Notes: generated by a model not told the origin, from the letters alone. Shown: positions 34,826 through 41,315, numbered from the stretch's first letter. The stretch is 55,114 nt of DNA from Oscillospiraceae bacterium (GCA_009780275.1 WRAI01000014.1:1-55114); one strand, 5' to 3'. Made by a program: numbers and translations.

Positions 34826-34854
34826 GCATAAGCCCTCCTCACACTTCATACACT
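34826..34854 (+). promoter_or_regulatory. Sigma-E-type promoter of spoIVA
   Basis: GCATAAG (34826-34832), 14-bp spacer, CATACACT (34847-34854). This fits the mother-cell sigma-E consensus (KMATATT-N14-CATACANT) well, and spoIVA of Bacillus is known to be sigma-E dependent. Confidence 0.75.
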
Positions 34855-34891
34855 ACCAGTGAAATAGACAAACAACAAGGGGGAATTCACT

Positions 34892-36226
34892 GTGGACGCC
34901 ACTCGTATCTATGAGGACATCGCACTTCGCACCGAGGGTGATATTTATATCGGTGTCGTTGGCCCGGTGCGTACCGGAAAATCGACGTTTATCAAGAATT
35001 TTATGGAAACACTGGTCATACCAAACATCGACAACGCCGCCCGCCGCGACCGCGCGCGCGACGAACTGCCGCAATCGGGCTCAGGTCGCACCATTATGAC
35101 AGCTGAGCCAAAATTTGTACCGGAAGATGCCATCGAAGTCGGCATCGGCGGCGGCGCTGTGTTTCAAGTCAGACTGGTCGATTGCGTGGGATATATGGTG
35201 CCGGGTGCAGTTGGCCAAATTGAGGACGGCCAGCCGCGTATGGTGACAACTCCATGGCAAGCTCAACCCATGCCTATGGCTAAGGCTGCCGAGATGGGCA
35301 CACGCAAAGTTATCGATGACCATTCTACCATCGGCATGGTCATCACCACAGATGGTACCATCGGCGACATCAGCCGCGAGGACTACATTGAGGCCGAAAC
35401 TCGTGTTATCACTGAGCTAAAAGCACTCGGCAAGCCCTTTTTGGTACTGATCAACTCGGCGTATCCTGATGCGCCGTTGGCGTTGGCCGTCACCGAAGAG
35501 CTCCGCGCCGCACATGGCGTAACCTGTCTTCCTGTCAACGTCACTCGCCTATCTGAAAATGAAATCGCCGAAATTATCAAGGGCGTACTATTTGAGTTCC
35601 CGCTTAGTGAGCTAGGCTTGTTTCTGCCATCGTGGGTTGAGGCGCTTGACAATACCCATCCCATCAAGACAACAGTATTTGCTGCTATGCTCGAAGCCGC
35701 CGAGTCACTCGTCAAAATCCGCGATGTGCAACCATCGCTTAACAGCATGAAAACCTGTCCCAACATCAGTGGAGTCAGCCTAAATACCATTCATCTCGGC
35801 ACAGGCATAGCACTGGCAAACATCGAGCTGCCGCGCGAACTATTCTATGCCACACTGGGTGAACAGTCGGGCTTTGACATCAATGACGATGGCGACCTAA
35901 TGGCATTGCTGTCTGGGTTGTCAAAAATCAAAAACGAGTATGCCAAAATTGCACCTGCGCTTGAAGATGTCGAAAATTTCGGCTACGGTATCGTTATGCC
36001 ATCTACGGAGGAACTGTCACTCGAACAGCCCGAAATTGTCCGCCATGGCGCGCGATACGGCGTGCGTTTGCGGGCAAGCGCACCTAGCATACATATGATT
36101 CGCGCTGATATTGAGACCGAGGTATCACCATTCAATATGACGGCATCTTCACAACAGCGAAAATTATTCATAAATCAATTAAAATGTGATTCCATCATTG
36201 ATATAGGATATTCTTGTGTGGCTTGA
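34892..36226 (+). CDS. spoIVA: Stage IV sporulation protein A, N-terminal 412 residues plus a foreign tail
   Basis: SpoIVA is the ATPase that polymerises on the forespore surface as the base of the spore coat. It starts at GTG with AAGGGGG upstream. The Walker A motif G24-P-V-R-T-G-K30-S-T is intact, and residues 1-412 follow the family closely to I-R-A-D-I-E-T-E-V-S. At that point, inside the direct repeat at 36112-36126, similarity ends. A 32-residue unrelated tail (P-F-N-M-T-A-S-S-Q-Q ...) leads to a stop. The missing C-terminus is at 41025-41282. Joining both at the repeat gives 492 residues. As it stands the protein lacks the C-terminal region known in Bacillus to be needed for localisation. 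Confidence 0.95.
   Translation: MDATRIYEDIALRTEGDIYIGVVGPVRTGKSTFIKNFMETLVIPNIDNAARRDRARDELPQSGSGRTIMTAEPKFVPEDAIEVGIGGGAVFQVRLVDCVGYMVPGAVGQIEDGQPRMVTTPWQAQPMPMAKAAEMGTRKVIDDHSTIGMVITTDGTIGDISREDYIEAETRVITELKALGKPFLVLINSAYPDAPLALAVTEELRAAHGVTCLPVNVTRLSENEIAEIIKGVLFEFPLSELGLFLPSWVEALDNTHPIKTTVFAAMLEAAESLVKIRDVQPSLNSMKTCPNISGVSLNTIHLGTGIALANIELPRELFYATLGEQSGFDINDDGDLMALLSGLSKIKNEYAKIAPALEDVENFGYGIVMPSTEELSLEQPEIVRHGARYGVRLRASAPSIHMIRADIETEVSPFNMTASSQQRKLFINQLKCDSIIDIGYSCVA
36112..36126 (+). repeat. attL core, left end of the spoIVA element
   Basis: TGAGACCGAGGTATC, identical to 41024-41038, in the same reading frame of SpoIVA (E-T-E-V-S). Together the outer bases of both ends make a near-perfect inverted repeat for the circle junction, GTGAGACC-GA-GGTATCAC. 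Confidence 0.9.
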
Positions 36227-36244
36227 TGCTGCCACACAAGAAAG

Positions 36245-36275
36245 AGCAGGCATTTCAAATTGAAATGCCTGCTTT
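36245..36275. terminator. Terminator at the left end of the element
   Basis: A perfect 14-bp inverted repeat (36245-36258 and 36260-36273) is followed by TTT. It ends the truncated spoIVA frame and also the minus-strand cargo operon. In the excised circle it would lie behind the recombinase gene. Confidence 0.8.
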
Positions 36276-36293
36276 CCATATGCACTTTTTGCT

Positions 36294-36950
36294 CTACTGA
36301 GTGTGCATCGCTCTATATTCTCTCAACTGCTCGTGCCATTTCTCGGTGTTGCATTCTTGTGGCTCTGTCGCCTCACCCATCAACAGGTCTAGCAGATAAC
36401 GCGGTCTCTTGTTGCCAATATGCATAGACTTGATGCAAGAGACGCAATATACACAGACCTCATCACAAGACATCGCAGCCCCGCGCTCACACATTTTATT
36501 ATGCACTTCCTCTATAGACAATCTGGGATAAAAACTATCGCCGCAACAGACAGAACGTTCACCAAAGCGCACAGGCTCTACCACTTGGATGTTCATTTTT
36601 CCAAGCAAACTACGCACAGCACGGTGAACCTCAGGGCGCCCTCGTACAGGGCAAGGATCTTGGATCGAAAGGGATATTTGCTGATAGTCTGCGAAGGGAA
36701 AATAATCCATCTCGTCAATTACCTCCCACAAAGATATTGTGGATATCCCCTCATATAAAGTGTGAAATCGCTTGTCACACCCGGCACACACATTTATAAT
36801 CCGAGATCTTGCCGGGACTTTTGGGTCGTAATGGCAGCAGATAACATGTAGTGAAATGTCATCAAATTTCGTTTTTAAAAACGTAAGCAGCATATGTGCC
36901 ATCTCCGGCTTGTAAAGATTTAGCGCACACCCGGGATTGAAATATATCAT
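36294..36950 (-). CDS. CCG-domain (heterodisulfide reductase B-like) Fe-S protein
   Basis: This 218-residue protein has two cysteine-rich (CCG) domains. The first has F-N-P-G-C-A-L-N-L-Y, I-C-C-H-Y-D and V-C-A-G-C. The second has D-P-C-P-V-R, V-C-C-G-D-S-F-Y-P and C-V-Y-C-V-S-C. Such domains bind Fe-S clusters in heterodisulfide reductase HdrB and in glycolate or lactate oxidase subunits, usually beside catalytic partners. None is nearby here. It is cargo of the spoIVA element and is 56 bp downstream of the transporter on the same strand. The reaction is unknown. Confidence 0.75.
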   Translation of the reverse strand: MIYFNPGCALNLYKPEMAHMLLTFLKTKFDDISLHVICCHYDPKVPARSRIINVCAGCDKRFHTLYEGISTISLWEVIDEMDYFPFADYQQISLSIQDPCPVRGRPEVHRAVRSLLGKMNIQVVEPVRFGERSVCCGDSFYPRLSIEEVHNKMCERGAAMSCDEVCVYCVSCIKSMHIGNKRPRYLLDLLMGEATEPQECNTEKWHEQLREYRAMHTQ

Positions 36951-37006
36951 GCTTACCCTCCAACAATGACCTCGCCGAATATTTCTTTGTCTAAATAACG
37001 CTCACA

Positions 37007-38860
37007 TTAAAACGGGAAAAATAACGGTAACAGCAATATGACCACCAATCCAACAATAAGCTGTAGCGGGATGCCAACTTTCATATAGTCAAGAAACGTA
37101 TATTTACCCGCAACCATCACCATCGCATTTGGCGGAGTCGATACAGGCGTAGAAAAGGACATGCTGGAGGCATATGTGACTGCCATGACAAGAGGAAAAG
37201 GGCTGACGCCCAGTTCCTGAGCCGCTAAGACCGCCACCGGCAAGAACAAAACTGCCGTAGCCGTATTGCTGATAAATATCCCGAAAATAGAAGTTGTCAC
37301 ATAAAGCCCGACCATCACCGCGCTAGGTCCTGCGCCACCTAACGTGGCAGTAATACTATCCGCGATAAAAGCGACACCACCTGTATTCTCCAAAGCTGTT
37401 GCCATAGGCAGCATACAGGCAATAAGTATAACAATCTGCCAATTCACAGCGCGATAAGCTTGTTCAGTACTTCGAACACTACCCGTCAAAACCATGAACA
37501 GCCCTGCTATAATGACGGTTATCACCGCTGGGATCCACTCAAAAAGCAACATTGCAATCATGCATAAAAGGATGGCACTGGCTAAAATAGCGCGAACCGG
37601 TTTAAATACTGCTTCCGGCGCAGTCATTTCTCGACGAATGACGACGAGGTCCCTTTTTTCCTGCGCCAAAAGATCTATGTTTTTCCACTTTCCATACACC
37701 AACATAGCGTCTCCATAATGGAGTTCATCTTGCACAGATGGCGGCTTCGGGTTTTGATACCGGCGTTTTATGGACAAAACGGTAAGCCCATATTTGTCTC
37801 GGAAGTGAATATCCTTCAGTGATTGCTTAATAAGATTTGATCTCGGTGTCAAGATAACCTCGGCAATGTTTTCTTCTTGGATATGAAGCCCTTCCACCAA
37901 GTCGCGAGAAATTGTTTCTAACCCCATCTCTTTTAAAAACCTCTGTAAAGCAGTGCTATCGGCATACAGCAGCAAAATGTCGTTTGCCTCTAACACATAG
38001 GACGGCTCTGCCAACACCTGAGAGAATCTGGACCCCGGCAAAAAGGAAAGCGTTTTTGCCGCTGCCTTTTGCCGCATCTTTAGTACGGTGACGTTGTATC
38101 GACTGGGCCACTGTAACGCTTTTAGTGTTTTGCCGACAAGCGCGTGGTCGGTAGGCAACTGCACATAATGAAGATTCGCATCTATTTGATATTGACACAG
38201 AAGTTCAGATACACCAATTGTATCTGCAATCTTTGACTTTTTCTCGTAGGGTTTGTTAAGCCATCTCCGCCCAACAAACCACATATAGGCGATGCCCGTA
38301 AAAAGAATGATAATGCCTATGGGGGTAAAGTCAAAAAACGACAAACCCTGAAACCCAGAGTTGATAAGCGTTTCTCTCGCAAGCAGGTTGGGTGCTGTTC
38401 CGATTAGTGTCAACGCGCCACCCATACTGGCACCAAATGCAAGAGGCATCAAAAGCTTCCCTGGGTTTATATTCATTTTCACGCACAAACTGACAACGAC
38501 AGGCATCAAAATAGCCACAGTGCCTGTGTTACTGATAAAACTGCCTAGCACGGCGACCATAAGCATGACAAAAATCAGCATTTTAAATTCACTGTTACCT
38601 ATCATTTTCCCAAGCATATTGCCAGCTTTTCCTGCAAGACCTGCTTGGGAAATGCCTTCTCCGACGACAAATAATGCCGCTAACATGACGACTACTGTGC
38701 TGGAAAAACCAGCTAATGCCTCTGATACAGTAAGAACGCCTGATAAATACAATGCTAAAAGCGAGCACAAAGCCACTACATCAGAGCGAAATTTTGGTAT
38801 TGCAAAACATACCATAGTAGCCAATAAAATTATAAATACTAATTCCATTTCACCAAACAT
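37007..38860 (-). CDS. SLC13/DASS-family transporter with two RCK-C domains
   Basis: The 617-residue product has about eleven membrane segments in two halves, separated by two TrkA-C (RCK-C) regulatory domains. The first spans about 215-300, with L-P-T-D-H-A-L-V-G-K-T-L, and the second about 320-400. The S-N-T-G-T-V-A motif in the first half and S-N-T-A-T-A in the second are the family's substrate/Na+ motifs. Homologues carry dicarboxylates, sulfate or similar anions, so the substrate is open. An alternative start at 38848 is possible. It has a TTGACA/TATAGT promoter at 38977-39005. Confidence 0.85.
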   Translation of the reverse strand: MFGEMELVFIILLATMVCFAIPKFRSDVVALCSLLALYLSGVLTVSEALAGFSSTVVVMLAALFVVGEGISQAGLAGKAGNMLGKMIGNSEFKMLIFVMLMVAVLGSFISNTGTVAILMPVVVSLCVKMNINPGKLLMPLAFGASMGGALTLIGTAPNLLARETLINSGFQGLSFFDFTPIGIIILFTGIAYMWFVGRRWLNKPYEKKSKIADTIGVSELLCQYQIDANLHYVQLPTDHALVGKTLKALQWPSRYNVTVLKMRQKAAAKTLSFLPGSRFSQVLAEPSYVLEANDILLLYADSTALQRFLKEMGLETISRDLVEGLHIQEENIAEVILTPRSNLIKQSLKDIHFRDKYGLTVLSIKRRYQNPKPPSVQDELHYGDAMLVYGKWKNIDLLAQEKRDLVVIRREMTAPEAVFKPVRAILASAILLCMIAMLLFEWIPAVITVIIAGLFMVLTGSVRSTEQAYRAVNWQIVILIACMLPMATALENTGGVAFIADSITATLGGAGPSAVMVGLYVTTSIFGIFISNTATAVLFLPVAVLAAQELGVSPFPLVMAVTYASSMSFSTPVSTPPNAMVMVAGKYTFLDYMKVGIPLQLIVGLVVILLLPLFFPF

Positions 38861-38976
38861 AAAATTACGAGTCCGCCCTCTTTACAAGAATTTTTCTCCT
38901 TCAAAATCCCAATTGCTATACATTTTTAAATCAATGCCAAACGAGCTGATTGAACGCACAAATGCTTTGTATCTGA

Positions 38977-39031
38977 ACTATACCATGATACTATACCGAT
39001 GTCAATGCTGCTTTACTATGCATACTATACC
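38977..39031 (-). promoter_or_regulatory. Cargo operon promoter with three ACTATACC boxes
   Basis: On the minus strand TTGACA (39000-39005), 17-bp spacer, TATAGT (38977-38982). The octamer ACTATACC occurs on the plus strand at 38977-38984, 38990-38997 and 39024-39031. Two lie in the promoter and one just upstream, as possible operator sites. Confidence 0.6.
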
Positions 39032-39105
39032 GCGTTCCATGTAAAGTTGAAATGATCATATTTTCGGCACTAAGTATACGTGCACCTAAAACCGGCAAAC
39101 AAAAT

Positions 39106-39133
39106 GAATAGAAAAATTTTTCAAGCATACCTT
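39106..39133 (+). promoter_or_regulatory. Possible sigma-E-like promoter of the recombinase operon
   Basis: GAATAGA (39106-39112), 13-bp spacer, CATACCTT (39126-39133), 29 bp before the ATG at 39162. It resembles the sigma-E pattern seen at spoIVA, with mismatches at the ends of the boxes. No sigma-A boxes are evident here. Confidence 0.45.
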
Positions 39134-39161
39134 TTAATAACACCGGATGGAGGAATAGAGT

Positions 39162-39353
39162 ATGCATCTAACAATAAATCAGCAAAGTCTCGCAAAGGAA
39201 TATGGCAAAAAATCATTAAACAACGCATTATATGACCGTGGCGTAATCTCGAAATCATTGTATGCTGCCGCCTCAGAAAAAATAATCTTAGAAATTGACC
39301 GCCTTAACAATTTATGTTATAGCGAGTTCACAACATATATCACGGCGGTTTAG
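39162..39353 (+). CDS. 63-residue protein, candidate excision (directionality) factor
   Basis: This small, soluble, mostly helical protein (M-H-L-T-I-N-Q-Q-S-L-A-K-E-Y ... L-N-N-A-L-Y-D-R-G-V-I-S) has GGAGG 8 nt upstream. Its stop lies 3 nt before the recombinase ATG, so both are translated together. It resembles in pattern the small ORFs often found in front of clostridial recombinases. SprB, the directionality factor of the spsM excision system, is 58 residues long. The RDF role is inference from size and position; no homology to SprB is claimed. Confidence 0.6.
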   Translation: MHLTINQQSLAKEYGKKSLNNALYDRGVISKSLYAAASEKIILEIDRLNNLCYSEFTTYITAV

Positions 39354-39356
39354 CTA

Positions 39357-41282
39357 ATGGAATTACGTGAAATTAAGCAAGCAATTACAGAAGGTTGCTC
39401 ACTTAACGATTTAGACCTTAAGGTAGCATATTATGCTAGGGTATCCACAGACCGAGAAGAGCAACAAAACTCACTCGAAAATCAAATCAGCTACTTTCAC
39501 CATTTCATTGATAGCAGAAAGGAGTGGACGTTTGCCGGAAAATATATCGACGAAGGCATCAGCGGAAGCAGCGTAGAAAAGCGCGAAGATTTTCTGCGCA
39601 TGATTGAAGATGCGAAAGCTAAAAAAATGAACTTGATATTGACAAAAGAAATCAGTCGCTTTTCTCGCAGCACCTTAGACAGCATCAAGTATACACGTGA
39701 ACTGCTGCGATTCGGGGTCGGCATCCTGTTTATACATGACAATATCTGCACACTCTCTCCAGACGCCGAACTGCGCTTAACAATTATGGCGAGTTTAGCG
39801 CAAGAGGAAATCCGGCGGTTATCTGACCGCGTAAAGTTCGGAATGAAACGTGCCTACGAAAGCGGCAAAGTTTTAGGCAACGACAGCTTATATGGTTATA
39901 AAAAAACAAACGGAAAACTGGAAATCGACAAAGAGACCGCGCCGTTTATCAGAGATTTATACCAAATTTATAGCGAAGGGAAGCACGGCTTTCGCAGCAT
40001 CGCCCGCATTTTAACCGATATGGGTTATCGCAATAAAAAAGGTGAGCATCTTAACCCCGGAACGCTACGTCAAATCATGCAAAATCCTAAGTATAAAGGT
40101 TATTATTATGGCAGGCTTACCGAAAGCAGTGATTACCAAACGCAAAAAAATATTGCGCTACCCAAAGAAGAACAGCTTTATTATAAAGACAAAAACATCC
40201 CTGCACTCGTTTCCGAGGAATTATGGGACAAAGTCAACCGCATTATTAATGAGCGAGCGAGCAGATTCAAGCAAAAATCGAGCGCTCAAGAGCGATACTC
40301 ATATTCACAAAAAATCGTTTGCGGCGTACACGCAACTCATCATTACCGCAAGGTTTGGAACGATCGAAAAATCCCACTGGAAAGTTGGTGTTGCAAGGAA
40401 TATCTGTCGCACGGACGAACAGCTTGTCCAACACCTCATCTACATACCAAAGAACTTGACCTCGTAATGGAAGCCATCGGCAAACAGGTCGTCCAAACCT
40501 GCCACCTTATCACAAATGAGCTCATCAGCTTGTATAAGGAAGTTGTTCTTGATACAGTTGACTTTGACAAAGAAATCACCAACATCTCTAAGGAATTACA
40601 AAAGTATGCAGACAAAAAGCAACGGCTTTTGGAATTGATGATTGACGGCACCATTGACAAGGACGATTTCAAAAAAATGAACGACGGAATCAACATTGCT
40701 TACGCTAAACTCAAAAAAAAGCTAATCGAGCTAAATGAAGAAAAGGCAAAGCTGGAAGACTCGGCTTCAATGTACAACAACGCCAAATCTATCTGTGAAA
40801 AAATTACAGCGGACAAAACTGTTCCGCTTGAAATCGCTAAAGAGATGTTAAATAAAATTATCATCAACCCCGGCAGCACAAACACACATATCAAATTGAC
40901 CATATCGTTGAAATATCAACCAGAGTTTTCTGCCGATATTTTACGTGTAGCATCCAAAAAATGCTCTGCAACAGACAAGCTTTCCATCACCATCTATTCC
41001 AACCGCACCGTCATTTTAAGCAGTGAGACCGAGGTATCCCCCATCGTCGGCAACGAACGGCAAAGTGAGGATTTAATCAACTATCTTCTGTCTGAGTTTG
41101 AAGGTGAGCCGGAAAAAATCTGGCAGAGCAACATTTTTGGCATTTCACTGCACGATTTGGTTAGCGAGGGACTGAACAACAAACTCAAACGCGTCCCGGC
41201 AGACGCACGAGCAAAATTGCAAGAAACATTGCAACGCATCATCAACGAAGGGTCCAACGGGCTCATTTGTATTATTCTATAA
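39357..41282 (+). CDS. Large serine recombinase fused in frame to the C-terminus of SpoIVA
   Basis: The 641-residue product has the resolvase domain (residues about 22-165) with catalytic Ser30 in Y-A-R-V-S-T-D-R. Next come L-T-K-E-I-S-R-F-S-R-S, the recombinase domain (about 185-290), a zinc-ribbon-like region (C-G-V-H ... W-C-C ... C-P-T-P, about 320-360), a coiled coil (about 395-475) and a C-terminal region to about 556. Residues 557-561 are encoded by the attR repeat. Residues 562-641 (S-P-I-V-G-N-E-R-Q-S ... I-N-E-G-S-N-G-L-I-C-I-I-L) are the end of SpoIVA. On the excised circle the tail would become P-F-N-M-T-A-S-S, giving 593 residues. It is predicted to excise and integrate the element. 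Confidence 0.94.
   Translation: MELREIKQAITEGCSLNDLDLKVAYYARVSTDREEQQNSLENQISYFHHFIDSRKEWTFAGKYIDEGISGSSVEKREDFLRMIEDAKAKKMNLILTKEISRFSRSTLDSIKYTRELLRFGVGILFIHDNICTLSPDAELRLTIMASLAQEEIRRLSDRVKFGMKRAYESGKVLGNDSLYGYKKTNGKLEIDKETAPFIRDLYQIYSEGKHGFRSIARILTDMGYRNKKGEHLNPGTLRQIMQNPKYKGYYYGRLTESSDYQTQKNIALPKEEQLYYKDKNIPALVSEELWDKVNRIINERASRFKQKSSAQERYSYSQKIVCGVHATHHYRKVWNDRKIPLESWCCKEYLSHGRTACPTPHLHTKELDLVMEAIGKQVVQTCHLITNELISLYKEVVLDTVDFDKEITNISKELQKYADKKQRLLELMIDGTIDKDDFKKMNDGINIAYAKLKKKLIELNEEKAKLEDSASMYNNAKSICEKITADKTVPLEIAKEMLNKIIINPGSTNTHIKLTISLKYQPEFSADILRVASKKCSATDKLSITIYSNRTVILSSETEVSPIVGNERQSEDLINYLLSEFEGEPEKIWQSNIFGISLHDLVSEGLNNKLKRVPADARAKLQETLQRIINEGSNGLICIIL
41024..41038 (+). repeat. 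attR core, right end of the spoIVA element
   Basis: TGAGACCGAGGTATC, identical to attL. The central dinucleotide of the inverted repeat is GA (41031-41032; 36119-36120 at attL), the likely crossover point. The repeat lies in frame in both the recombinase and spoIVA. Confidence 0.9.
41025..41282 (+). other. spoIVA: Detached 3' segment of spoIVA (last 85 codons incl. repeat)
   Basis: Downstream of the repeat the frame reads the conserved SpoIVA end: G-N-E-R-Q-S-E-D-L-I-N-Y-L-L, K-I-W-Q-S-N-I-F-G, L-Q-E-T-L-Q-R-I-I-N-E-G-S. It lacks its own promoter and start and is translated now only as the tail of the recombinase. It ends at the normal SpoIVA terminus, followed by the spoIVA terminator. Confidence 0.93.
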
Positions 41283-41285
41283 GCA

Positions 41286-41311
41286 AAAGTCCTGCCAACC
41301 GGCAGGACTTT
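41286..41311 (+). terminator. spoIVA terminator
   Basis: AAAGTCCTGCC pairs with GGCAGGACTTT around AACC and is followed by TTG and TTT. It ends the recombinase-spoIVA tail transcript now and restored spoIVA after excision. Confidence 0.9.
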
Positions 41312-41315
41312 TTGT

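Follow-up and report, generated by a model that had tools for sequence, protein, structure and literature searches.

A putative skin-like intervening element carrying a large serine recombinase splits the sporulation gene spoIVA in an Oscillospiraceae genome

The window, that is, the whole stretch of 55,114 nucleotides that was analysed, is contig C14 of the Oscillospiraceae genome GCA_009780275.1 (G000; 2.09 Mb in 49 contigs, 97% complete). The spoIVA gene is interrupted here at 36112/41024 by a 4,912-bp element, which is flanked by two copies of the direct repeat TGAGACCGAGGTATC (Table 1). The product of the 5′ part, which starts at 34892 behind a SigE-type promoter, matches the Pfam domains SpoIVA_ATPase and SpoIVA_middle, departs from the SpoIVA family after the residues ETEV and continues in a foreign tail, while the final ~85 SpoIVA residues (SpoIVA_C, E=1.5e-35) are encoded on the far side of the element. 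With SpoIVA domains on either side and a SigE-type promoter in front, the interrupted gene is a mother-cell sporulation gene.

The two copies of the 15-bp repeat lie 4,912 bp apart in the same reading register; by our own estimate, a 15-bp match between two flanks of ~100 bp is expected by chance with a frequency of about 1e-5. Joining the gene at this core gave a single in-register frame of 492 codons plus stop, which is the exact length of the NCBIfam model TIGR02836, and the two parts together cover all 492 positions of the model. The original prediction that spoIVA is split by a serine-recombinase element, and that the join at the repeat yields one frame of the length usual for the family, was borne out by the domains on both sides and by the spacing of the repeats. 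It had placed the recombinase in the DNA between the two parts of spoIVA; as a correction, the recombinase and the 3′ part are not separate but form one 641-aa frame, which runs without interruption through attR into SpoIVA_C. A second, complete spoIVA elsewhere in the genome, named in advance as evidence against the prediction, was ruled out, as the search of the 2.09-Mb, 97%-complete genome found no other SpoIVA copy.

Table 1. Features of the split spoIVA locus in the window and of the split sigK in the same genome (promoters, terminators and sites are predicted)
Feature	Position	Strand	Details
SigE-type promoter of spoIVA, GCATAAG - 14 nt - CATACACT	34826..34854	+	consensus 13/15; weighted score 14.5
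spoIVA 5′ part, codons 1 to ~411, plus element-encoded tail FNMTASSQQRKLFINQLKCDSIIDIGYSCVA	34892..36226	+	PF09547, PF20438, TIGR02836 1-417
attL core TGAGACCGAGGTATC	36112..36126	+	in register with right copy, codon 407-412
Strong hairpin and T tail, just within the element	36245..36273	.	13-pair stem
Cargo 1, 218-aa protein	36294..36950	-	NF045663 E=3e-28, far under cut-off
Cargo 2, 617-aa anion permease (CitMHS/SLC13 type, TrkA_C domains)	37007..38860	-	PF03600 E=1e-90, PF02080
Sigma-70-type promoter of cargo 2	39005-38977	-	predicted
SigE-like site, GAATAGA - 13 - CATACCTT, ahead of small ORF and LSR	39106..39133	+	weak, 12/15
63-aa ORF immediately upstream of LSR	39162..39353	+	counterpart at this position in class relatives
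Large serine recombinase (LSR), about 556 aa, frame into SpoIVA_C	39357..41282	+	PF00239, PF07508, PF20439
attR core TGAGACCGAGGTATC	41024..41038	+
spoIVA 3′ part, codons ~408-492	41025..41282	+	PF20439, TIGR02836 405-492
spoIVA terminator	41285..41312	+	12-pair stem and T tail
sigK 5′ part	G000 C19:47935-48291 (L109:3936-4292)
sigK remainder and serine recombinase	G000 C25 (L257:3585-5649)

The hairpin just within the element is predicted from its stem to end transcription of both the truncated spoIVA and the cargo genes. Cargo 1 is related to part of the dicluster-binding oxidoreductase-associated family (NF045663) and had no match in Pfam, and no phage genes were recognised within the 4.9-kb element. 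The recombinase appears intact, with both of its Pfam domains present (PF00239, E=2e-29; PF07508, E=5e-19; PF20439 of the fused part, E=1.5e-35) and with the catalytic Ser in YARVST and the Cys residues conserved. The nearest named families are CcrC (NF047347, E=2.5e-34) and XisF (NF041201, E=5.5e-24), the latter being, by its name, the fdxN element excision recombinase, but the LSR scores far below both equivalog cut-offs and is a member of neither. The SigE-like site ahead of the small ORF scores weakly, with p about 0.03 in comparison with shuffled sequence. The 63-aa ORF matched no Pfam or NCBIfam model; its counterparts in the class relatives were recognised by phmmer with E-values of 9e-8 to 4e-4, and a small ORF of roughly 40–70 aa just upstream of the LSR is common across the family; its product is a candidate recombination directionality factor or accessory protein. 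According to the computed join, the LSR frame in the post-excision circle would end in the same ~30-residue tail that now ends the split SpoIVA.

The neighbourhoods of the 80 nearest relatives of the LSR in GTDB species genomes were surveyed. At least 71 of the 80 lie next to a sporulation or cell-wall gene fragment (sigK 35, spoIVA 20, D-Ala-D-Ala carboxypeptidase 7, penicillin-binding protein 5, sigG 4), and three further ones fit the pattern by eye. A tree of 60 rows, representing the targets spoIVA-408, spoIVA-400, sigK, sigG, PBP and D-Ala carboxypeptidase, grouped the recombinases by target gene, each target having its own clade or nearly so: the six targets required five changes, the minimum possible, compared with a mean of 34.8 after shuffling. 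The LSR of the window falls inside the spoIVA-408 clade (SH-aLRT 100) on a long branch (0.95), which could reflect relaxed constraint. Members of the same family also split a PBP gene (L203, L214, L222) and a D-Ala carboxypeptidase gene (L212, L217, L226) in uncultured Bacilli, for which spoVD and dacB/dacF are candidate identities.

At least six other genomes, from several families, have spoIVA split at codon ~408 and SpoIVA_C fused to an LSR (G007, G017, G407, G408, G410, and G409 as one of two inserts); scanning of named genomes contributed Oscillospiraceae MAGs and one MAG each of Monoglobus and Defluviitaleaceae. G007 and G017 belong to the same family as the window; their LSRs are 50–55% identical to that of the window, and the cargo of G007, the only one that was readable, differs from that of the window element. 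Congeners of these two genomes carry an intact spoIVA. In-register cores of 7–15 bp at codon ~408 were identified in the genome of the window and in G007, G407, G408 and G410; the join analysis of the class relatives found none for G398. One contig of G406 holds an uninterrupted spoIVA, the unoccupied site of which coincides exactly with the predicted attB; another contig holds a 3′ part fused to an LSR. As these copies are not identical after the core (about 97%, six mismatches in about 204 bp), they probably stem from two strains, with and without the element, and not from one cell in alternative states. The possibility that the 3′ part of spoIVA travels with the element was rejected, since the 3′ parts follow the host genus. 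A search of viral contigs for the free circle (attP form) of the spoIVA-408 type found none, the pattern matching 28 unrelated stretches instead. On contig C15 of G007 (L033), the spoIVA-splitting LSR is preceded by clpP, clpX and tig, hence either this element is very large or the locus has been rearranged.

A second class of LSRs cuts spoIVA at codon ~400, around ATACATAT, about ten codons from the 408 site. Its carriers include Ruminiclostridium papyrosolvens C7, where the N and C parts of the gene are 6.25 kb apart, R. sufflavum, Flavonifractor An306 and An10, Pseudoflavonifractor, Dysosmobacter, a Lachnospiraceae MAG and G313 (41 kb), among others. Joined frames were open in 15 of the 17 pairs from the codon-408 and codon-400 classes together. 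The spore-forming Ruminiclostridium listed in PMC10701907 include R. papyrosolvens and R. sufflavum, and the search of the R. papyrosolvens C7 and R. sufflavum genomes found no SpoIVA other than the split copy; if these bacteria sporulate through SpoIVA, the gene must be rebuilt. Both sites are occupied in G409 (contig C37; L263, L152), the spoIVA of which is in three pieces and requires two joins: SpoIVA 1-400 is followed by an element, a piece coding HMMRADITTEI, a second element and SpoIVA 412-492, so that a mini-exon of about 12 codons lies between the two elements.

The genome of the window also contains sigF, sigE and sigG. Its sigK is interrupted at the classical skin site, next to a serine recombinase other than the one in spoIVA, the 5′ part ending ...CRCIENAILT on one contig and the remainder lying by the recombinase on another (Table 1). 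Since sigK is split as well, this genome appears to carry two intervening elements, one in spoIVA and one in sigK.

Considering these results, we propose, with a probability of about 0.85, that the spoIVA insert is a skin-like intervening element which is excised in the mother cell to rebuild the gene. The skin-like reading of the original prediction has been strengthened by the target-faithful recombinase clades, the sister elements of spore formers and the split sigK in the same genome. Among the alternatives, the one that survives best, though we regard it as improbable, is that a plain mobile element integrated into spoIVA and inactivated it, sporulation being lost or on the way to being lost. 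The lack of detectable SpoIVA in some relatives within the family (G001, G003, G004, G005, G013 and G015), most of which are incomplete assemblies, would agree with this, and excision from spoIVA is a step that we infer. However, both halves of the gene are intact in the window and match in GC3 (0.56 and 0.55, the element genes having 0.38–0.48), and the split copies of G007 and G017 have not evolved faster than the intact copies of their congeners (Tajima chi-square at most 3.4); both halves are under continued constraint in the relatives. The presence of all four sporulation sigma genes, with sigK itself split at the skin site, makes a simple loss of sporulation less likely, and in spore-forming species the sister element sits in the sole spoIVA.

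SpoIVA might also function as two polypeptides, a 444-aa N part and the LSR–SpoIVA_C fusion, both of which could be translated from unrearranged DNA without any excision. This is very improbable, because the N part ends in a tail without homology, there would be no need for precise att cores, and the 3′ part in the codon-400 class lies outside the LSR frame, yet is equally conserved. Least credible is that the assembly is faulty or chimeric at 36112 and 41024, a possibility against which the original prediction had itself cautioned: the assembly does consist of 49 contigs and the halves are on different contigs in G007 and G017, but misassembly is unlikely because the same junctions were assembled independently in other genomes, on a single contig in G410, and those of the sister class in R. 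papyrosolvens C7, R. sufflavum, Flavonifractor An10, G404 and G313.

SpoIVA is the product of an early SigE gene and forms the basement layer on which the spore coat is built; as it is needed early, excision of the element would have to be early, too. For the skin-like element, we envisage that spoIVA is split in growing cells and in the germline, and that during sporulation SigE would turn on spoIVA and probably also the small ORF together with the recombinase gene. The LSR and a directionality factor, for which the 63-aa protein is the candidate, would then recombine the two att sites, attL and attR, at their 15-bp core, so that the 4.9-kb circle would be released and the mother cell chromosome would regain a spoIVA of 492 codons. 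In the forespore, the chromosome would retain the element, which would therefore be inherited. What we infer here concerns the excision as such, the cell type and time at which it occurs, and what the small ORF does; excision in the mother cell is proposed by analogy with the skin of Clostridioides difficile, where the recombinase CD1231 and the factor CD1234, the latter under SigE and SpoIIID control, excise the element in the mother cell (PMC5025042). As the same split recurs in other gut and cellulose-degrading spore formers, the carriers probably have to excise DNA to make the spore coat. If this is true, DNA excision becomes a condition for the start of the coat, earlier than the known sigK switch, and the presence of the sister class in Flavonifractor isolates and in Ruminiclostridium, which is cultivable and spore-forming, makes it testable now.

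Both within the family of the window and outside it, the same LSR family splits sigG, the gene of the forespore factor, at residue ~238 of 254 (G002–G006, L179, L180, L195, L200, L207), and the last sigG residues are fused in frame to the LSR (L207:7976-11686; L180:1443-11695; L179; and L085–L089 of G002–G006). Another break, near residue 94, is seen in G007 (L090) and G008. On contig C1 of G008 (L103, L091, L040), sigG is in three pieces, the last of which lies on the opposite strand about 85 kb away, hence joining would need inversion, not excision, if the contig is correct. An ORF inside one sigG element (L207:9548-9742) resembles an alpha/beta small acid-soluble spore protein, typically encoded by a SigG-controlled gene. 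On a 34-kb viral contig (L299:5989-7737), an LSR runs through EIGI into a tail like that following the split sigG of L180, an arrangement matching the attP form expected of a sigG-targeting phage.

Since SigG acts in the forespore, sigG would have to be rearranged in the germline cell or before septation, which would break the rule that excision takes place only in the dying mother cell. We tentatively suggest, as a possibility we hold to be less probable than its opposite, that one LSR family is specialised on sporulation genes and that some Clostridia run several excisions per spore (spoIVA at two sites, sigK and sigG), that of sigG being germline or pre-septational. The sigG siblings call into question the idea that only mother-cell genes tolerate intervening elements, and run against the reported rule: published elements are almost all in such genes (PMC6957869).

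Neither a spoIVA nor a sigG element was found in the mostly open-access literature searched, so that this absence is no proof; for spoIVA, it agrees with the original prediction, which knew of none. The known targets are sigK, spsM, spoVFB, spoVR, gerE and yabG (PMC10747680, PMC6957869, PMC4191935), and spoIVA is not listed among the interrupted genes in PMC4191935, PMC6957869, PMC5595907 and PMC10747680. The spoIVA element shares with the skin in sigK of Bacillus subtilis and C. difficile an element-borne serine recombinase, a short direct-repeat core, a split mother-cell gene and an in-register join, and a sigK clade exists in the same LSR family tree. Unlike skin, it targets spoIVA instead of a sigma factor, is 4.9 kb long with no phage genes detected, and its LSR frame is fused to the 3′ part of the target. 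The same principle, gene rebuilding through excision by a serine recombinase, operates in SPbeta/spsM, vfbin/spoVFB, vrin/spoVR, gin/gerE and yin/yabG (PMC4191935, PMC6957869, PMC5595907, PMC10747680), which are mostly from Bacilli and of which gin, like the spoIVA element, contains no phage genes. Elements of this kind are known; new, as far as we have found, are spoIVA as the target, the pair of adjacent sites and the fusion of recombinase and SpoIVA_C in one frame.
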